This document shows positions 20,268 through 33,610 of a stretch of 64,000 nt of DNA, piece after piece (the stretch's first letter is position 1; every line of letters starts with the position of its first letter). Both the position numbers and the translations under genes were made by a program. The notes below the pieces were generated by a model. That model was not told the DNA's origin, ran no database searches, and saw nothing but the letters and a program-made list of their open reading frames with translations. Source of the stretch: Aporrectodea caliginosa (Eukaryota > Annelida > Clitellata > Crassiclitellata > Lumbricidae); NCBI GenBank assembly GCA_020284085.1, contig JACEVL010000154.1:2292143-2356142 (forward strand), in the 5' to 3' direction.

Positions 20268-20974
20268 GCCCAACGTATCCCTTACCGATTTACTGTATTG
20301 CCGCTCTAGCCTCTAGCTGCACTCTTGGGTGTGATCTGTAGCCCAGTGATGTTGCAGCGCGCCGGGTCCTTGCTTCGCTCTGCGACGAGGGGTGGAGTCG
20401 GTGGACTTTTATGGATCAACCCAACTGGTTTTATAGGCCTAATTAACTGTTCTCGTTATATTGAAATGTTATAATTTAAGTGAGAGTTTCATGGAATTTT
20501 CAAGTACTTCATTCAAGTATTCGACCATGGGATCACTCTTAGGCTGCATGGATTCAGCGACAAACTTCCGGTGAGAGTTGATTTTGAATATCAATGCATG
20601 GTGTCTACATGTGCTGGTCTATCTTGGGTAATTGTACAGATCCCTAGGTTCGCTGCAAGGACCTATTATGCAGATTCCTTGGGTTCGATGATAGAAAAAT
20701 ACAGCCGCCCTAGACTCCCGATAGAATAGAGTGCTATCAAACCTCTGAACCCTCTCACATTCGCCAGCTATTCACCATCCAACCGCCTGGGTCTATTCGC
20801 TCATCATATCTTTCTCTATCTCGGCCTCCAGTCTCATCCTCTGAAATTCTGCAACCGCTCCTTAGTCTATGCTGCACCAGGTCTTTGGAACGGACTCCCA
20901 AGACCTCCGCCAGTTTGCTCAACCTCGCCTTGTAATTTAACCTCTCCTCCGCTTGCACTCTCCTCTGCTAATTT
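20268..20974 (+). pseudogene. CR1-like LINE remnant, second piece
   Basis: Continues the trace from 17683: the duplicated CATTGGCT sits in the LHWLP codons. Near 20875 the sequence reads APGLWNGLPR, a standard motif close to the end of CR1-type reverse transcriptases, followed by SSANF at 20974 where another hAT element interrupts. Confidence 0.65.
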
Positions 20975-23158: not shown

Positions 23159-23262
23159 GACTTGTTTGTGGCAATTATTGTTGACCAAATTGCAGCACTT
23201 GAAGTGGCCGAGGAGTTATTCAACACAGTGTACAATGAGATGGCAGATTTTCACCACAATCT
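23159..23262 (+). CDS. NRDC: Nardilysin-like exon: DLFVAIIVDQIAAL..
   Basis: Acceptor TTTGTAG, donor CT|GTAACT (phase 2). It encodes DLFVAIIVDQIAALEVAEEL and continues to NEMADFHHN. This parallels the LFVEG.VQGN strand-helix unit that precedes the C-terminal domain in nardilysin, though weakly. It is the first exon of this gene visible in the window. Confidence 0.55.
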
Positions 23263-23584: not shown

Positions 23585-26500
23585 CGCATTATAGACCTGT
23601 ATCATATATACTTTACTTAATGGTGCCCATTAGGACTTATGAGCTGAAAGCATAAAACATTTAACATTAATTATTTTTTTAAAGTTTAGTTGTAAATTTG
23701 TATAGTGCTTCTTCAAATGAAAATGTCAGAACTGTTTCCATGCTAACCTTAGTAAAGCTATTACTATTATTTTTATTATTATTATTAATTATGCATTAAT
23801 TAATCACCATGTTGGGGTCCATAGTATGGCAGGCAACATGCTAGCACGAAGAGCATAACATCCATGCATAAAGCGGGATTGATACCTGTTACCCCGTAAG
23901 GTCGACTCAGCCTTCCATTCCCTAGCTGTCGATGGTAAAATAATGATGTTGTAGGATGTGATGGGCGCCTAGCAGGCTGTCATACTGTTATAAAATCAAT
24001 TCTTGCACAACTTATAATCACGTGTCTCTACAGACTCAAGTAATCTGACTGCGGTTTGTCAGTTTGAGTCAATAAACATTACACAAGAATATTATTGTTA
24101 TTACTACCGTATATAATGACCAAGCATTGATCAATGGCACTGAGCAAGTCTTAGTGAAGGATTTGCTCAACTTCCCTACAGAGTACCCGTCTCAGAGCCG
24201 GAGGCTCGAACCCATGCTCTCCACACTAAAAGAAGAGTGATCTAACCAATTAGCAACCTGTGTCCCGATGATGTTTAGTTAATTAAAAACGTCAGGTATG
24301 ATGGTAGTAGTATTTCTTTTATTGTTTATTGAGTTTGAATCAAATGCATGACCAATCATTAGTTTACAAAATTTTACACAGACTGGAATGCAAACAATAG
24401 CAGTGAAATAACTTAATTAAAGAATAGCATACCTGAGCTTACAAACTTAAAACTGACGCAACAGATGATTCACGAGGAGAACAAACTGACAGCTTATCCC
24501 CACCATTTACGAAACAGTAATATTCAATTAGAATGAACACTATTTGTAACACATACATCGGCCAAAACTCAAAAAGACATTAATGTTACTACAGTAATAC
24601 ATGTATATGGCATGATAATATGATATCATATATTTCTTTTATTGGTTCAATTGTAACAAGCAAAAAGAGTCAGCGAAAAACAAACGATAAAGTTACAAGT
24701 ATCACTGATACCAAACATTAAATTAACAGGTATCTTAATTAATTGACAAATATTTTTGCAAAGATATTCAAATATGCAAAAACGAAATTATAAATATCAC
24801 TGAAGAGAAGAACCAAAGTTTGCAGTAAAGATTAATTAATATAATAGTGATAGTATACAATTATCAACGGTATTTCAAAAAAACATTACACATAGCAGTG
24901 GTACATGGACATTAAGTTAACATGTGGCTTAATTAAATTAATCATAATAAACTCGTGCTGTGTAGAACACAAAGGGAGACCCCGAAGGGTGGAAATCCCA
25001 CTAACCAGCACCCCCAATTATCTGTTGTATTAGTTTGATGGTTATGCAGAAATTGATAAGTTAAGAAAAATTAAATAATAACAGTCGATTCAATTTAGTC
25101 AGTCAGCATAATTATCAGTACAGCAAGGAAACAGTAACATAACAGAAGCAATCAAACAAACCAAATGAGAGATCTTCGATGGAGTTTAAAAACTTTTTCA
25201 TTTAAGTAATTAATGTTTTTGTTAGCCATTTGCAAAGGTTCATTTTAAATAGGTTTATGTTGGGGTATGTTTAAGGCTTTGTGGTAATGTATTCCATATG
25301 ATTGGACCCTTGCACTTTATAGAGAATTTGCGTGAGTTAATTCTAGCAAAGTGAGCTCTTAGAGAAAGAGCTTCTTGTATCGTAAGAATGAATGTCCGAA
25401 CTTAACCTAAACAGATGAGTAAATTCATCAGGTAACATATTATAAAGAGATCTGTACATGAATTAGCATGTTTGGAATATTGTTATTTGAATAATTTTTA
25501 AAATTTCCAGGTAGATAAATAGCTAGTCAGTATGTGTAGTATAATGAGAGCCACTTATGATAGACAATTATTTTCCCACGTAGTAATAATTTAGCGATGT
25601 GACACATGTTTCATTACTATAGCGTTCATCATCGCTGTGGAGTAGTAGCCTTGAAGGAGCACTATATCAATCTTCATAATGAATAATTGAGTCGAGAGAG
25701 TCTTGGGATTAGCTTAAAAATATTGGTTCATCTGTACATCACTGATGCGTCGTTTCCCATCACGTTGAAATATTTGACTCAGTAAAACTGTTTTAGTGAT
25801 AATAATAAAACGATGACTTCCATAGCATCGTAGCACAACTGAGGCTGAACACCCTTTGGGTGTTGTACTAGAGTTAAGGAATCATTGACGGTCACATGAT
25901 AGCTTAAGAAGATAGGTCTTGAGCTGTGATTTGAATGTTTCCAGAGATGGCGCATTCGTTACCAAAACCAAGCCGTAATCAGGTCAATGTCCAGAAGATC
26001 AATCTGCTAAGATTATTTAATGTGGCATGTTTATTTTGGATTAGGAAGCCATTGACTATGAAGCACGCCTGATCCAAAAGCTAAAACTCAAGGCTGCTGG
26101 AAAGCTGGACAGCCTATCGGAAGTGAGTCAATTATTGCTGACTAATGGACTGATTGCAGGTTGGCTGTTTTTGGAATACTTGGAATAGGTTGGAAAATTG
26201 ATGCATTACATCCTAGTACAGTAGTAGTTATTAACATACTGAGGCCTGTAAAGTGCAAGTTGTGCCACTTAAATTAATAAAATACTTTTAAAATGATTAT
26301 TATAAAATGCTGATGAAATGATTAGTGAACAGTATGCATGCAGTGCTTGTATTATAATTTATTTAGAACTTTGTGTTCTGATACCCATACTTTGGTAATT
26401 GGCTTTGCTTTAGGGTTGGGTTTAGGACCACCGGATGTCTTAACCCAGCTCTTGGCTTAGGGTCCAAAAGTCTTAATCCGGCCCTGATCAGAACAGGCAG

Positions 26501-29500
26501 TGAATGCCATATTAATCTCAGATTGGCAGCTGAGAAAATCTTTGATTGCAATACAATCTGTTTATTACTTGAGGCAAAGTCAATTTATTTTGATGTTTTA
26601 TCCTTTACCAGATATGCATCACAGTGGTTCCTTGTGGCGTGTCCACTCTAAAACTATTCAACCGGAACGTGAATGATGACAACTCTGTCATCGAGAATTT
26701 CTACCAACTCGGGCCTTTCGATCTACGATGGCAGTTGTTGTCGGAGCTTGTGATTGTAAGTCATTCATAATACCAAATCTCAAATGTATCTCTGTTCCAA
26801 ATTGGATTAGGATTGCAGTGTCATGAAACGTGGTTTCCGATTGTGTAATCTGATCATTATTAGTTATTGTTAATTAGTAACTGCATTGTGCCGGTGTCTA
26901 ATACACAAGGCATCAACCAAAGCCGAGCTGCAATCAATTCAGCATCCGGAAGATCAGTCTGTTGAGACAGAGAAAGACAGTCTATGGTGGATAAGCAATC
27001 CAAAACAGATGAGTTTTAAGTTGAACATGAAATGACACAAGCGAACGAGTGATGGTCGCATACCTGTATATGCAAAACTGGCTTCAGATTTCAGGAACCT
27101 TGGAGTAGAGAAACAGTCAGCTACTGTGAGACCCAATAGACTGCACACCCTTTTGCTATGAACTGTTTTCCAATCAGAAAAAATGGGGTAACCCCAGATC
27201 CAACCAACATTAGAGAACTTGGATGGTGACTAGAACAGGCAGTGAATTCCATAGTCTCAGATTGGCAGCTGAGAAAAATCTTAATTGCAATACAATCTGT
27301 TTAATAACTTGAGGCAAAAGTCAATTTATTTTGATGTTTTATCCTTTACCAGATTTCCATCACAAAGGTTCCTTGTGGCGTGTCCACTCTGAAATTATTC
27401 AACCAAAATCTGAATGATGACAACTCTGTCATCGACAACTATTACCAAATCGGGCCTCTCGATCTACGTTGGCAGTTGTTGTCAGAGCTTGCGATTGTAA
27501 GTCATTCATAATACCAAATCTCAAATGTATCTCTGTTCCAAATTGGATTAGGATTGCAGTGTCATGAAACGTGGTTTCCGATTGTGTAATCTGATCATTA
27601 TTAGTTATTGTTAATTAGTAACTGCATTGTGCCGGTGTCTAATACACAAGGCATCAACCAAAGCCAAGCTGCAATCAATTCAGCATTCAGAAGATCAGTC
27701 TGTTGAGACAGAGAAAGACAGCCTATGGTGGATAAGCAATCCCATACAGATAAGTTTTCAGTTGAACATGAAATGACACAAGCGAATGAGCAATACCATA
27801 TGCCAGTTTAATAGTCCAACAATGCATTGGCAGAACATATGGCAAATGGGTAATTGAACTCCCAACACTGGTGACAGATGGCAGCATTGGCTGTAAACGT
27901 GTAAAGGAAATCTGAAATTCTGTTGGCAGTCCGTGGTTGTTGTTTAAAGCCGTGTCCTCTGCCTCCTCTCTCTGGTCTCTCGGCAACTGGACTCGTACCT
28001 CCACTGGACATCTCTGGACAACCCCCTGACACGACACACTGTTAATGAATAAGCTGGTACCCTCTGCTTAGCTTTTGAGTAGTGCTATACACATTTTGAG
28101 TTTACAATAATGCTTATAAATGATTTGTTCTTATTCACATTGTAACATTTGACAATGCAGTAGGTAGTGCTTAATGTTTAATTGTATGGAATAATATCTA
28201 TGTCAGGCAGGGGTGGGGTGTCAAAGTCCAGCCTTCAACAAGGTTTTATGGCCTGCCGAGCCTTGCCTAAATAAGATTAGAAAGACTGCACAATTTAAGA
28301 ATAAATGTTCAAAGTTGTCATTTTTCATTGCATATGAAGCAAAATCAAATTACTGCTTGCCGATTGCCTGAAAATATTGACAACCTAATGCTCATAATAT
28401 TTCAATGTAGGAAAACATGGAGGAACCGGGGTTCAACCGGCTGAGGACCAAGCTGATGCTCGGTTATGAGGTCACCATCAAGTACAGCTACACATATGGA
28501 ATAGCCGGATTTTCTGTGACTGTGTGTAGCCAGGCATCAAAACCACGTAAGTTGTGAGCAGCCTTTTTCCAAAGTTGCGATGTAGGAACTCATGGTCGCA
28601 CCAAGCGCACATTCTTTTGAGGACCAAGCTGATGCTTGGTTATGAGGTCACCATCAAGCACAGCTACACATATGGAATAGCCGGATTTTCTGTGACTGTG
28701 TGTAGCCAGGCATCAAAACCACGTAAGTTGTGAGCTCTTTTTCCAAAGTTGCGACTCTCCCAACAATCTGGGTGGAACGTTAAATTCATGATGTACTCTA
28801 TTTAATCGAATTATGTATGTGGAACCATTGTCGTAATGCACAGGGTATTGAGAAATGGTTGCTTCAGGTGAAACTGCATCAAGAATCATGATTGGTTGGA
28901 GCCATATGTCAGGGAAACCAAATCGGGCTATTGTGGATAAGCAAGTAGAATCGAGTGGTGGGTAAGCAAGTGGAACCATGTGTTGGATAAACAAGTGGAA
29001 CTATGTGGTGGATAAGCAAGTGGAACTATGTGGTGGATAAGCAAGTAGAATTATGTGTTGGGTAAGCAAGTAGAATTATGTGGTAGGTAAGCAAGTGGAC
29101 TCTTTAAGTTTAGAATGACCTGAATGACATTAAACAGCTAATGGAATAATGAGAACTGTTAATGAATTTCAATGCTTCAGAACCAGCCACTGAGAATGAT
29201 GCTCTAAGCCCAACACATCCTAATCATCTGAATTCATGCTTTCATTCTGCTGGTTTATTCTGTAATCCTGCTCATGTGGGGCATGATTGCTGAATGGATA
29301 GAGTGCTAGGCCTGTAATGCAGAGAGCATTGGTTCGAGCCTCCACTCATGCAGTCACTGTGGAAGTACATTGAGCAAGTCCTTCACGCACAATCGCCCAG
29401 CACCATCAATGTTCGATTGTATGGTGTTGTATTTACTTGTTAACTTTGGAAGGAGGGCAATATATAAAATACAGTGGTATTATATTGTATTAGGGACCTT

Positions 29501-32500
29501 GAGCAAGTCCTTTACTCACTATTACTTAGCACCATTGATGTTTTGTTGTGTGGGCACTTCTGAGCTTTTAAAGGAGAGCAATATCAAATGCAGTTGTACT
29601 GTATTGTATTGCATTAGGGACCTTTTGATCAAGTCCTTAACTCACTATTGCTCAGTGCCATCGATGTTCTGTCATGTGATCGTGTGTGAACTTCTGAACT
29701 TGGGAAGGAAGGCAATATATAAAATACAGTTGTATTGTATTGTATCTAATTCATCATGTTGCATATTGTGTGAAACTTTAGAAGTGAAGAAGTAGATAGC
29801 CAGATTGACCGGTTCCTTCTCGATTACAACCGGGGTTCTATCCAAAAGATGACTGCGAGAAAATTTGATCTATTAGTGAGTAGTGTTAATTTGATCTATT
29901 GGTGAGAAGTGTTAATTTGATCTATTGGTGAGTAGTGTTAATTTTATCTATTGGTGAGTAGTGTTAATTTGATCTATTGGTGAGTAGTGTTAATTTGATC
30001 TATTGGTGAGTAGTGTTAATTTGATCTATTGGTGAGTAGTGTTAATTTGATCTATTGGTGAGTAGTGTTAATTTGATCTATTGGTGAGTAGTGTTAATTT
30101 GATCTATTGGTGAGTAGTGTTAATTTGATCTATTGGTGAGTAGTGTTCATAGTTGCAATGTTGTGACTCATGAAGCATAGCAACTGTTTGGATGATAGCA
30201 GCTGTTGCTAAGCAATATCTCTCCCTCTTCAAGTTCTCTGCCCTTGGACAGGTTCAAATGTTTAATGACGCCATTCCTCTCAACTGTGGGCTTCTTCCTT
30301 CATTGTCCTATATATGTATCCATCATCATCCAGTCCAGCAGCATTTTCATTCTTGTTCTCTTGCCCTCTTTGCTTCCCTGTATGATTGTTCTTTGAGGGG
30401 GCCCATGCATACATGGGGAGCCAACCAACCGATTCCCGTCAGCAGTTGACAGATGTCTCTGGCTATCAAACCAATCTAAGCAAATGGTACCTAAGATTGG
30501 TTGAAATTGTACTTTGAGCTGAGTCAAGTGAAAAAGTACATAAATGTGATGAACGACATTCGTATAGCATGGTCCAAAACAAATGAAAGGATGAAAGGCT
30601 CTGATCTTTCTTACCATTGAGAGGAGAAACCAGTTCTGATTAGTAAGTGAAGTCCAGTCTAAAATCCACAGAAAATATCTGTCTTCATTTTGTTTTGATA
30701 GGGATAACACTACACTCTGCTTTACATTACAGGTCGCAGCTCTCATGAAAACCAAGACACTGGATTCAAAAAGCCTGAAAGAAGAGGTTGATGGCAATTG
30801 GGAGGAAATTACGCAGCAGAGCTACAATTTTGATGGTGCTGAAAAAGAGGTACAGGTCTTCATTCAGTTACTTCAATCCCAAAACGCTGTCTGACCTAAA
30901 AATGAAGTTCAAAGACTTGTTGCACCAATTTTAATTCTTTACTTAGGCAGGTAAACTGTTAGTAATAAAATTCAGCATGCTTCTCATCCTCAGTGAAACC
31001 CACCATAGCAGCTGCTATGCCTCCTTTCTCTGGCAACCAGACTTGGACCTCCACTGATCATCGATCTCTGGACAACTGTCTGATACAACACAGTGCTTAT
31101 GAACAAGCTGGCACTTTGTGCTTCGCTTTAGAAATTTGGAGTATGATTACGATGCAACAAGATTAAGAGTCCAATGAGATCAGAGTCTAAAATTCTTGGC
31201 TTTGGTATAGTCGTGGTCTAATACCAAGGTCAGTGTTTAAAGTGGGTGGGAACACTTGGGAACGGCATTCCCACTGCTCTCAAAATTCTTTGCTTGCATT
31301 CCCACTGCTCACCATGCTATGCAACCCTGGTAACACATGCATTCCAATAAACCCTGGTAACACATGCATTCCAATAAACCCTGGTAACACATGCATTCCA
31401 ATAAACCCTGGTAACACATGCATTCCAATAAACCCTGGTAACATATGCATTCCAATAAACCCTGGTAACACATGCATTCCAATAAACCCTGGTAACACAT
31501 GCATTCCAATAAACCCTGGTAACACATGCATTCCAATAAACCCTGGTAACACATGCATTCCAATAAACCCTGGTAACACATGCATTCCAATAAACCCTGG
31601 TAACATAAGCGCTCCAACAAAACTCTTCTTCCGAGTTCCCACTGCTCACACAAACCACTTAACCACTGACTAAGGTTATTTTTAAGCTGTGATCGTGCCT
31701 TGGTTTTCAATTCCAATTTGATAGTTTTTAGGGTCATAGCACCACTTCATGTTGGCAGAACAGCGCATTAACCGGCAGCACGTTAACAAGTCCACACTGT
31801 AGTTACAAACTCATTAGACTACAGAAACCTTCTGAACCTTATAAGAGACATTGAACATAGTGTTTGGATAGTGTTTGGAATGTGCTGAACATAATGTTTG
31901 AAAAGTGCTTACCCTTGCATTGCTATGATTGCTGGCATGACATTAAACAGGTAAAACAGTTTGATAGTAAGATTTATCATTAACTGATAAATAAAGGTGT
32001 GTTAGTTTTTAATTAGTGATTTAAAATTGCATGTTATGCCTACTGGAAGAGGAGATATTGTCACAGTATTGCTAGAAGTTTTGTGTCATCATCAGGAATA
32101 ATTTGTAAATTTAGTGAGGTGGTTTTATAGAGACACTATATATCTCTATGCTTTGATGTTCTCCATCATACGTCCCTCAATTACAATTTTAATTCTTCAG
32201 ATTGAAGAACTTCGAAAACTGACGGTTGAAGATCTGAAACACTGGGGCCAGGATCAGCTGATGCCAAATGACAAGAGAAGAAAGCTCAGCATTCAGGTAA
32301 TCATCATTGGCATATGACAAAGTTCCTTGTCTTGCAAGTTGGTTTAGGTTAATCACAACTTGTAGAAATGTTCAGCAAGCTTTAATAGCTTTAATGGCCG
32401 TGCCTTTTAAGGGTGTCTTTGAAGGCGCTGTTTAAGCGTGGCAATAACTTTGGTCTAAAAGGTGGGGGAACAAATTTGTTCCCTCCTTCCTCGGTAAATT

Positions 32501-33151
32501 GCAATGTGCTTTGAACCACAGAAGCATTGGGAGTTATACACAGCCACAATAGCAACATTTCATGATCGTAGGGTGTATGATAGTCAAGTGGTTAGCTTGC
32601 TGGACTGTCAACCAAGAGGCTAGGAGTTCAAATCCCTGACAAGGCAGAAATTTGCTTGGAGATTTCTGCTCTACCTGTGCGCCAACCAACTTGGCAGTAA
32701 AGAGTAAACTGACTCTACACTGTCGGTGGGAAGATGGAATGGTGAGGGAGAGGACTGCGCCCGCACCCTCATATGTCAAGACTACGAAAATGAAGTCGCT
32801 AACACCATACCGATGGCTGCCTCTCGGGCTGGCAAGGGACTGCTCCTCCTTTTCTATCTTGATCTTGGTCTCTTCGGCATTTTACCATAGTACTAGTTCT
32901 CATAACTTACTCGGATGTGAATTTAAGAATGTTCTTTGGTAGGCTAACTGAGATAAATAACTGGACAACTGTAAGAGATTTGCACATTGGTCAATACATT
33001 GTAGGTTGTGGGACATGCCCGAAGTCGGAAGATGGCAAAAGAACAAAGGAAAAAGACCACTTCGCATGGAAATCTCCCGCACCAAGAAATCTTGGACATC
33101 GATGACTTCAAGGGTCACTGTGAACAGCACGTCTTCAAACGCCGCCGTTGA
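23159..33151 (+). CDS. NRDC: Nardilysin-like M16 peptidase gene, C-terminal half
   Basis: Nardilysin and insulysin are M16 metallopeptidases with an N-terminal catalytic half (zinc motif HxxEH) and a C-terminal half that completes the chamber. Exons seen: 23159-23262, 26045-26122, 26612-26755 and its copy 27353-27496, 28411-28553, 29782-29875, 30733-30849, 32201-32296 and 33005-33151. Key matches: GPFDLRWQLLSELVI then ENMEEPGFNRLRTKLMLGYE, GIAGFSVTVCSQASK, KEEVDGNWEEITQQSYNF and LRKLTVEDLKHW. From exon 26612 onward all phases agree. The change from phase 2 at 23262 to phase 0 at 26045 implies a missing small exon or a wrong site. No HxxEH half was found upstream. GFSVTV..QA.K fits nardilysin better than insulin-degrading enzyme. 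Confidence 0.85.
23400..23583 (+). repeat. Retroelement-like 3' tail ending in (TCAA)n
   Basis: A segment ending ATTCAATAAACAATTTCAATC and then seven to eight TCAA repeats (to 23583), the usual look of a LINE/SINE 3' end with a microsatellite tail. Confidence 0.5.
24160..24275 (-). repeat. tRNA-derived SINE-like sequence
   Basis: On the minus strand: GGTTGCTAATTGGTTAGATC (A-box-like) and later GGGTTCGAGCC (B box) about 45 bases on, as in tRNA-derived SINEs. Confidence 0.55.
24300..25510 (-). pseudogene. LINE 3' fragment, minus strand
   Basis: 25185-25510 read on the minus strand gives NMLPDEFTHLFRLSSDIHSY, then in another frame LRAHFARINSRKFSIKCKGP and IIWNTLPQSLKHTP, the typical C-terminal tail of CR1/L2/Jockey-like reverse transcriptases. 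At least one frame change makes it a pseudogene. The AT-rich sequence down to about 24300 is probably its 3' UTR. Confidence 0.75.
26045..26122 (+). CDS. NRDC: Possible nardilysin-like exon: lysine-rich helix
   Basis: Twenty-six codons (EAIDYEARLIQKLKLKAAGK then LDSLSE) between acceptor TTTGGATTAG and donor GAA|GTGAGT. Its 3' phase fits the next exon, but its 5' phase does not fit 23262. No clear family match, so moderate support only. Confidence 0.4.
26612..26755 (+). CDS. NRDC: Nardilysin-like duplicated exon, copy A
   Basis: Forty-eight codons, phase 0 at both ends, acceptor TTTACCAG, donor ATT|GTAAGT. It encodes PCGVSTLKLFNRNVNDDNSV and then YQLGPFDLRWQLLSEL, matching the D.NS.....YQ.GP.....LMEL segment of the nardilysin C-terminal domain. 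Copy B lies 741 bases downstream. Confidence 0.88.
27353..27496 (+). CDS. NRDC: Nardilysin-like duplicated exon, copy B
   Basis: Also 48 codons, phase 0, with the same acceptor and donor context. It differs from copy A at 19 of 144 bases and 9 of 48 residues (C/S, V/K, R/Q, V/L, E/D, F/Y, L/I, F/L, V/A); the frame is intact and the GP and LLSEL landmarks are kept. Each copy alone, or both together, keeps the reading frame. Confidence 0.85.
27945..28085 (+). repeat. LINE 3' end repeat copy
   Basis: Matches 31015-31135 (GGCAACTGGACTCGTACCTC.., CATCTCTGGACAAC, GAATAAGCTGGTACC) and partly 22840-22880. Confidence 0.6.
28411..28553 (+). CDS. NRDC: Nardilysin-like exon: MEEP..LRTK..LGYE
   Basis: Acceptor CAATGTAG. 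It encodes ENMEEPGFNRLRTKLMLGYE and GIAGFSVTVCSQASK. Two donors are possible: 28547 (GTAAGT, phase 1) and 28554 (GTGAGC, phase 2). Only the second joins in frame to the 29782 exon (LSEEVDSQIDRFL), so it is preferred although GTAAGT is the stronger consensus. Confidence 0.82.
28617..28729 (+). pseudogene. NRDC: Partial duplicate of the preceding exon
   Basis: Repeats 28441-28553 at an offset of 176 bases, with about three base changes (one giving Y to H). It keeps both donor candidates but lacks the first ten codons and any good acceptor. The frame is open. Probably an exon relic unless an unrecognised acceptor is used. Confidence 0.8.
28930..29100 (+). repeat. 25-bp minisatellite, about seven units
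   Basis: Unit like GATAAGCAAGTGGAACTATG with GTG..GG variation; some units contain GGTAAGCAAGT, which resembles a 5' splice site. Confidence 0.85.
29277..29372 (+). repeat. tRNA-derived SINE-like sequence
   Basis: GCTGAATGGATAGAGTGC (A-box region) and GGTTCGAGCC (B box) about 40 bases later. It leads into the 29372-29760 repeats. Confidence 0.55.
29372..29760 (+). repeat. About 125-bp unit repeated three times
   Basis: Three copies of a segment with TTGAGCAAGTCCTT.., CACCAT..ATGTT.., and AGG.GGGCAATAT..AAATACAGT followed by TATTGTATT, starting near 29370, 29499 and 29625. Confidence 0.8.
29782..29875 (+). CDS. NRDC: Nardilysin-like exon: SEEVDSQIDRFLLDY..
   Basis: Acceptor AACTTTAG. It encodes SEEVDSQIDRFLLDYNRG and MTARKFDLL, matching the nardilysin helix with F(L) and T...F. 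It ends CTATTA|GTGAGT. Its last nine bases and donor form the first unit of a 26-bp array that continues to 30152. Confidence 0.82.
29867..30152 (+). repeat. 26-bp minisatellite made of a 5' splice site, 11 units
   Basis: Exactly 11 head-to-tail units of 26 bases. Each has GATCTATTGGTGAGTAGTG followed by TTAATTT, with few changes (unit 1 has TTAGTGAGT, unit 2 GAGAAG, the last TTCATAG). Unit 1 straddles the exon-intron border at 29875, so ten further GTGAG donor-like copies follow the real one. Confidence 0.95.
30733..30849 (+). CDS. NRDC: Nardilysin-like exon: EEVDGNWEEI..
   Basis: Thirty-nine codons, phase 0, acceptor ATTACAG, donor GAG|GTACAG. It encodes LMKTKTLDSKSLKEEVDGNW and EEITQQSYNFDGAEKE, the best-matching M16C segment (..LGEEVDRNW-type in nardilysin). 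Confidence 0.9.
31015..31135 (+). repeat. LINE 3' end repeat copy
   Basis: Same block order as 27945-28085 (GGCAACCAGACTTGGACCTC, CTCTGGACAACT, GAACAAGCTGG). Confidence 0.6.
31231..31668. mobile_element. hAT-type MITE expanded by an internal minisatellite
   Basis: Starts CAGTGTTTAAAGTGG and ends with a degenerate inverse (CCACTTAACCACTG). The flanks ACCAAGGT and ACTAAGGT match at 7 of 8 bases. The internal order of motifs mirrors the 168-bp element at 62906-63073 in reverse, with 11 tandem units where that element has one. Confidence 0.8.
31323..31619. repeat. 27-bp minisatellite, 11 units
   Basis: Units of exactly 27 bases starting AACCCTGGTAACACATGC; ten nearly identical, the last diverged. 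Because 27 is divisible by three, it makes long repetitive reading frames on both strands (for example NPGNTCIPI repeats); none is a gene. Confidence 0.97.
32201..32296 (+). CDS. NRDC: Nardilysin-like exon: IEELRKLTVEDLKHW..
   Basis: Thirty-two codons, phase 0, acceptor TTCTTCAG, donor CAG|GTAATC. It encodes IEELRKLTVEDLKHWGQDQL and RRKLSIQ, matching the helix before the last strand (..LSV.VVG) of M16C proteins. Confidence 0.88.
32566..32880 (+). repeat. tRNA-derived SINE, copy 1
   Basis: Starts with a tRNA-like head: TAGTCAAGTGGTTAGC (A box) and GGAGTTCAAATCCC (B box). A body follows with GAGATTTCTGCTC, CACTGTCGGTGGGAAGATG, GAGGGAGAGGACTG and AATGAAGTCGCTAACAC. The body is shared with 61965-62270 and, reversed and interrupted, with 48215-48480. 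Confidence 0.88.
33005..33151 (+). CDS. NRDC: Nardilysin-like last exon with stop
   Basis: Acceptor ATTGTAG, 48 codons plus TGA (33149-33151), starting VVGHARSRKMAKEQRKK and ending DDFKGHCEQHVFKRRR. The VVG start and the I-x-D-hydrophobic segment near the end match the nardilysin C-terminus. The tail KRRR is unusual and might act as a basic or nuclear signal (inference). Confidence 0.8.
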   Translation, partial: VVGHARSRKMAKEQRKKTTSHGNLPHQEILDIDDFKGHCEQHVFKRRR

Positions 33152-33169
33152 GTGTCGTGTACACTCTGT

Positions 33170-33610
33170 ATTTTTCCCATTATTATTAGTATTATTATCA
33201 TCAGTATTATTAGTATTATTATTGTTATTATATTTATACTAGACGAGTGTTCACAGTTTATTATGTTTTTACGCAGTCTGATTAGCACTGCACTTGAAAC
33301 GGACGGCATTGACTGTAGAATATAATGTATTCTTCACAGCTTTATTCATTCCATTATTATTAGTATTATTAACAGTATTATTATTGAGCGCTTCTGAGTA
33401 GATTACCTTGAAGGGGCGCTATATGAAATACTCCTTAATAATAATAATAATAATATTAGTATTGTTATTTTATTTTACTGGAATAACTAGACCAGTGTTC
33501 TCGTTTTCTATATGTTTTTAATGCCATTTGAGTAGCACTACACTTGAAATGGATGGCATTACTGCATAATAATGTAATGTATTCTGCACCGTAAAATTTA
33601 CAGCTTTGTT
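33170..33610 (+). repeat. Duplicated segment in the 3' UTR or flank
   Basis: 33215-33330 and 33465-33590 share a block order: TTATT runs, ACTAGAC.AGTGTTC, TATGTTTTTA, AGTAGCACTACACTTGAAA-like and GGATGGCATT. Between them lies TTGAAGGGGCGCTATATGAA, a repeat-tail motif. Confidence 0.75.

Follow-up and report, generated by a model that had tools for sequence, protein, structure and literature searches.

The window analysed here is a stretch of 64,000 nucleotides from the earthworm Aporrectodea caliginosa (NCBI GenBank assembly GCA_020284085.1, contig JACEVL010000154.1, positions 2,292,143 to 2,356,142). On its forward strand, to which all window coordinates below refer, it carries a nardilysin-like gene of family M16. 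Six proteins matched the gene at E ≤ 0.001 (best 1.9e-31), and three of the six are named nardilysin or nardilysin-like; the best protein match was from Zootermopsis, with 38% identity. One exon of this gene is present twice in tandem, as exon A (26612–26755) and exon B (27353–27496). Both copies are open frames of 48 codons in phase 0-0. Exon divergence, at synonymous sites as well, is larger than intron divergence, both between A and B and in the wider family of paralogues.

Divergence of the tandem exons A and B

Exons A and B differ by 19 substitutions in 144 bases, changing nine of the 48 residues, and realignment returned the same counts as the initial annotation. The homologous units extend from 26490 to 27049 for A and from 27232 to 27790 for B, so the unit end given earlier coincides with the end of homology. 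Between the aligned units lies a spacer of ~180 bp with no counterpart. Over the whole aligned units, there were 32 substitutions in 556 columns.

The introns were more alike than the exons. The upstream intron showed 4 substitutions in 118 columns and 7 gap columns, and the 36 bp next to the exon were free of differences (0/36). Downstream, 9 of 294 columns differed. None of these fell in the proximal 169 bases (26756–26924 after A, 27497–27665 after B), and all nine lay in the distal 125 (26925–27049 in the unit of A). The identity of the 169 bases after each copy, already noticed in the first reading, thus holds on the full unit alignment. The downstream intron at ~26871–27044 overlaps a dispersed many-copy repeat (~77% identity), and ~115 of the 169 identical bases are outside this repeat.

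The contrast between exon (19/144) and all flanks (13/412) exceeds chance (Fisher p = 3.7e-5). The longest identical run comprised 173 columns, exon edge included, and a run of this length was matched in a proportion of 0.0002 of the permutations over all columns.

Nei–Gojobori counting gave 9 synonymous changes in 33.3 sites and 10 non-synonymous changes in 110.7 sites (dS 0.335, dN 0.096, omega 0.29). Among codons for the same residue, 7 of 38 were changed, compared with 13 of 412 flank sites (p = 6e-4) or with 13 of 207 sites when only the distal flank was used (p = 0.02).

Tandem mutually exclusive exons are adjacent copies of equal length and the same phase. A and B are like them in all three respects, as far as can be read from the sequence alone, and their splice sites are intact: both copies share the 20 bases leading up to the exon as well as 12 bases spanning the donor, which agrees with the earlier description of phase 0 copies in identical splice contexts. 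Either/or or double inclusion would keep the frame, as had been proposed, and is structurally possible. A and B are possible alternatively spliced exons. Array copies on another contig, C849, have altered acceptors or donors, meaning that tandem copies of this exon are not always kept usable; two of them have a changed acceptor, unlike what is seen in mutually exclusive exons.

Paralogues on contig C849 and across the genome

The contrast recurs on contig C849 and is stronger there than between A and B. Single exon copies lie near 523, 536, 541 and 554 kb of this contig, and four further copies form an array at 558.8–560.0 kb with a spacing of ~350 bp. In the array (C849:558313–561465), copies b and c have the acceptor ACCGG for ACCAG, and the donor is GC in b, c and d. 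A stretch of 90 bp of the upstream intron is identical in 536, 523, 541 and 554, while their exons are 9–23% different.

Copies 536 and 523 differ at 23 of 144 exon positions and at 1 of 99 upstream positions. For 523 and 541, the exon differs at 22/144, the upstream intron at 1/100 and the downstream intron at 4/146. Over 2.3 kb of the latter pair, 70 of 2034 non-exon columns differed, compared with 22/144 in exon AB (the exon of the A/B type) and 13/123, plus 16 gap columns, in the next exon, C; two 100-bp intron windows were also at 13%. Same-residue codons were changed in 13 of 40 cases in this pair (p = 1.3e-9). Copies 536 and 541 differ at 33/144 exon positions and at 4/251 upstream positions. 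The reverse was found for 536 and 559a, with 3/144 in exon AB and 9/274 upstream, or 4/309 in exons and 75/1346 over 1.35 kb of non-exon sequence. Introns can therefore be near-identical where exons differ much, and different where exons barely do. On C849, exon distance showed no correlation with distance in the upstream intron (r = −0.08, P 0.60). The exon tree grouped 536 with 559a (98/99), and the upstream-intron tree of five C849 rows gave no resolution.

The differences between 536 and 523 are confined to exon positions 27–120 (P = 0.00055), so that the first 26 and the last 24 exon bases are free of differences. Four other pairs had no such edge (P 0.08–0.77). Between the C849 exon types, dN was 0.05–0.15 and dS was 0.58–1.37. 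Omega thus stayed below 1 here as between A and B, and accelerated exons of the venom type were not found among these close copies.

When the whole genome was searched with the exons joined together, 72 matches were obtained at E ≤ 10; eight of them, on the window's contig (C153), are the window gene, and the remainder are on other contigs. The comparison of A/B-type exons covered 20 copies, both window copies included, and its pairwise differences are given for pairs above its thresholds. In the fourfold analysis, 96 of the 190 pairs were usable, meaning that they had enough aligned intron and fourfold codons. Pooled fourfold divergence was 0.61, compared with 0.17 in the upstream intron, and fourfold divergence was the larger in 91 of the 96 pairs, which mix same-cluster and dispersed copies and are not independent. 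The five pairs without this excess were A/B, 536/559a, 559b/523, 559d/523 and 806a/806c.

The window gene was also compared with eight paralogue loci. Exons were 38–49% diverged and alignable introns 18–22%, the latter in BLAST-alignable stretches only (408–1875 columns per locus), which biases toward similar intron. Simple repeats and out-of-order matches were dropped in this comparison, exon A and C' (described below) were omitted, and the exon borders used for Z, C, D, E, F and G deviate by up to 2 bases from the coordinates given below. For copies 4541 and 4113, the total exon difference (29/144) is only a little larger than that of the introns (12% upstream, 9% downstream), yet their dS is 1.59.

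The upstream intron of B (27060–27352) had 20 matches in the genome in a search that skipped very common words. Every match was on an exon-carrying contig; the intron is therefore unlike a general repeat, and a dispersed repeat was rejected as the source of the upstream identity.

Recent copies were without the exon–intron contrast. At C806:1150201–1159000, exons AB and C lie together in a unit of 2,917 bp that forms a recent tandem triplicate, whose copies are 92–100% identical among the stretches listed. The first and third copies differ at 2/144 exon positions and 1/280 upstream positions.

Other exons and features of the window gene

Exons A/B, C, D, E and F resemble the C-terminal half of nardilysin-like proteins in sequence and in matches to a profile, which was made from six proteins and a human sequence. 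Upstream of A, exon X (20505–20570) is probable on weak evidence, with phase 0-0, tblastn and profile matches to nardilysins and AG/GTGAGA borders. Exon Y (23159–23262) is possible; it ends in phase 2 at a weak donor and has a weak tblastn/profile match. Exon Z (26045–26122) comprises 26 codons and precedes A, with an open frame and AG/GTGAGT borders, and its region is 60–69% identical in six paralogue loci.

Exon C, the LRTK..LGY region, lies at 28411–28553 and ends, depending on the donor, at 28546 (phase 1) or at 28553 (phase 2, which fits exon D). It is followed by C' (28618–28735), a truncated tandem copy with 98% identity over 118 bp, which begins within the exon and so lacks its initial residues. 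If the downstream donor at 28554 is used, a transcript with both C and C' would, judged by eye, stay in frame. Exon D (29782–29875) has a weak profile match of 9.7 bits, and exons E (30733–30849) and F (32201–32296) also match the profile. Exon G (33005–33151), with a stop, is the probable last exon; its evidence is weak, with paralogue matches only at E 1.8 and 4.6.

Minisatellites were found in and around these exons. At 29862–30147, 11 copies of a 26-bp unit repeat the end of exon D and its donor GTGAGT, which gives a row of potential donors. Two others, at 31323–31605 (27-bp units) and 28933–29099 (25-bp units), lie in introns of the gene, and the latter recurs in expanded form in the C4541 paralogue.

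The exons of the catalytic N-terminal half were not found in the window when searched with 11 peptides from two paralogues. This half was also not found at E ≤ 1 on C153, C849 or C806, and it was matched on C3728, C4541 and other contigs; the HXXEH zinc site is present at the paralogues on C3728 and C4541. The window gene may be a C-terminal-half copy; otherwise, the N-terminal part may lie too far away or have diverged too much to be seen. Thus, the gene is like nardilysin and insulin-degrading enzyme (M16) in the sequence of exons A to F, and unlike them in that no catalytic half was found with it, in the window or on the contig at E ≤ 1. Pfam gave PqqF-like_C_4, below the cut-off, and in the PDB insulin-degrading enzyme was the sole match, at E 0.0019 or worse, with none at 0.001. 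The earlier suggestion that the exon forms part of the substrate-chamber wall would follow from this weak alignment (E 0.0019) together with background knowledge of insulin-degrading enzyme.

Elsewhere in the window, 138–2531 holds an open frame of 797 amino acids, which we take to be LINE-like, with putative endonuclease and reverse transcriptase motifs. In the assembly, COX1 with an identical translation and 12 TGA codons was found on both C70:3435453–3436790 and C4544:4612–5949, as a nuclear insertion or a misjoin. The COX1 of the genome has 97% identity to that of Eisenia nordenskioldi and 96% to that of an Amynthas, which places the animal among the clitellate earthworms, probably the lumbricids.

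Origin of the contrast and its significance

We favour, with moderate confidence, the reading that purifying selection has maintained two old exon copies and that the introns have been re-homogenised by gene conversion. One 144-bp exon and its introns would have been duplicated in tandem inside the nardilysin-like gene. The exon versions A and B would be old and held by purifying selection, and their introns would later have been made alike by gene conversion between the copies. Sparing of the exons would reflect either selection against converted versions or a block to conversion by mismatches in the exon. Acting between the paralogues of the family as well, this process would uncouple intron age from exon age.

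Of the three causes put forward in the initial annotation, intron-restricted conversion fits best, and paralogues carry the same signature. The comparison of 536/559a with 536/541 points to partly separate histories of exon and intron, which seem to need recombination between copies. The clean exon edges of 536 and 523 suggest conversion tracts that start in introns and stop inside the exon.

Several results weigh against this reading. A large share of the A/B contrast is a single identical tract of ~170 bp, outside of which the flanks are 5–6% and the exon 13% different. The exon excess is modest against the upstream and distal downstream flank (13/243, Fisher p = 0.012; the distal flank comprised 243 columns in this test and 207 in that of same-residue codons). 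Where A and B share a V, P, T, A or G residue, the codons differed in 0 of 9 cases, and the synonymous excess therefore comes from codons for Leu, Ile, Asn, Arg and Ser. The 19 A/B sites polarise evenly, 9 for A and 10 for B, against outgroups that are saturated. On C849, exon distance tracks downstream intron distance (r = 0.51, P 0.037), and some copies have perhaps decayed: 554 has two in-frame stops and 586 has one, and 541 has four extra bases before the donor. Among 11 dispersed copies, the correlation of exon distance was r = 0.25 with the upstream intron (P 0.08) and 0.17 with the downstream intron (P 0.18); exon and intron histories are therefore not wholly uncoupled. The reading further requires that introns at dispersed loci, which lie on separate contigs, have been homogenised too or are otherwise slow to change.

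Exon import, another of the causes proposed earlier, is rather unlikely. Here, the unit would have been duplicated recently (introns ~3% apart), and a diverged paralogue would then have served, directly or via cDNA, as the conversion donor that overwrote one or both exons. It has the merit that one step gives an exon-limited island, and it agrees with A/B differences that are spread over the exon between positions 3 and 140 and with the raised divergence of both exon AB and exon C between 523 and 541. However, no donor was found in the assembly: the closest other exon copies reach at most 50% amino acid identity over the exon, in a comparison that excluded ten loci belonging to the window itself, and the donor protein searches gave nothing near the three C849 exon types off C849. 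The identical exon edges of 536 and 523 also argue against import.

Strong functional constraint on the introns, with the synonymous sites of the exon showing the true age, is less probable still. The likeness of introns across dispersed loci is as expected from it, as are the excess of fourfold over intron divergence in 91 of 96 usable pairs and the downstream correlation on C849. Constraint alone is disfavoured because copies with the same exon should then share introns, yet those of 536 and 559a differ; the lack of correlation with upstream intron distance on C849 speaks against it as well. A conserved intronic RNA was rejected, as Rfam gave no match in 26000–33300 up to E = 1.

Diversifying selection on the exon, the remaining cause of the three, is very improbable. 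The nine changed residues between A and B would suit it, as would the distance of A or B from dispersed paralogues (25–33 of 48 residues) and the dN of dispersed pairs (about 0.34–0.93), which is larger than their intron divergence. Protein change may have been faster in the family's past; omega is unreadable for dispersed pairs, as dS is saturated. Selection for new amino acids leaves synonymous change unraised, yet the synonymous sites have diverged, and dN is well below dS both between A and B and among the C849 types.

An assembly artefact placing two haplotypes in tandem, the refuting cause named at the outset, is the least probable of all: the assembly seems to carry duplicate contigs (matches on C100 and C1330 are equal in score), but A and B lie within a single 2.54-Mb contig with unpaired sequence between them, haplotypes would not yield 13% difference in the exon with 0% in the intron, and the signature recurs at other loci.

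Conversion of introns with sparing of exons has known parallels. In gibbon L/M opsin genes, synonymous and non-synonymous exon divergence are both larger than intron divergence, and non-synonymous is not larger than synonymous divergence; the catarrhine pattern is ascribed there to intron conversion and selection against exon homogenisation (PMC3213168). Our case is like these tandem duplicates in that exons, synonymous sites too, are more diverged than introns. It is unlike them in that the opsins are whole genes in an array, whereas an exon pair inside one gene and a dispersed family are affected here, with larger divergence. Viperid three-finger toxin genes show exon segment switching with intron segments reported to be more than 85% alike (PMC2474615). 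They share with our family the alike introns and different exon segments. In the toxins, however, short segments become dissimilar, while the exon here can still be aligned, and dN is lower than dS between close copies.

The literature search did not find nardilysin together with mutually exclusive exons, or an earthworm genome together with nardilysin. Intron homogenisation with exons spared is known; here it would act on neighbouring exons of a single gene and also among the scattered loci of a family. As a tentative extension, the exons of the dispersed family could be separately inherited cassettes, with introns recombined alike across loci and the exon versions, in tandem arrays at several loci, surviving until their synonymous sites are saturated and forming a store of alternative protease segments.

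The gene offers a natural test of conversion against selection within one gene, in which introns would record recent copying and exons the age of the versions kept apart. It also calls for caution, as introns are not safe as a neutral clock in tandem families. If A and B are used alternatively, exon diversity would be shielded from conversion inside a single gene.

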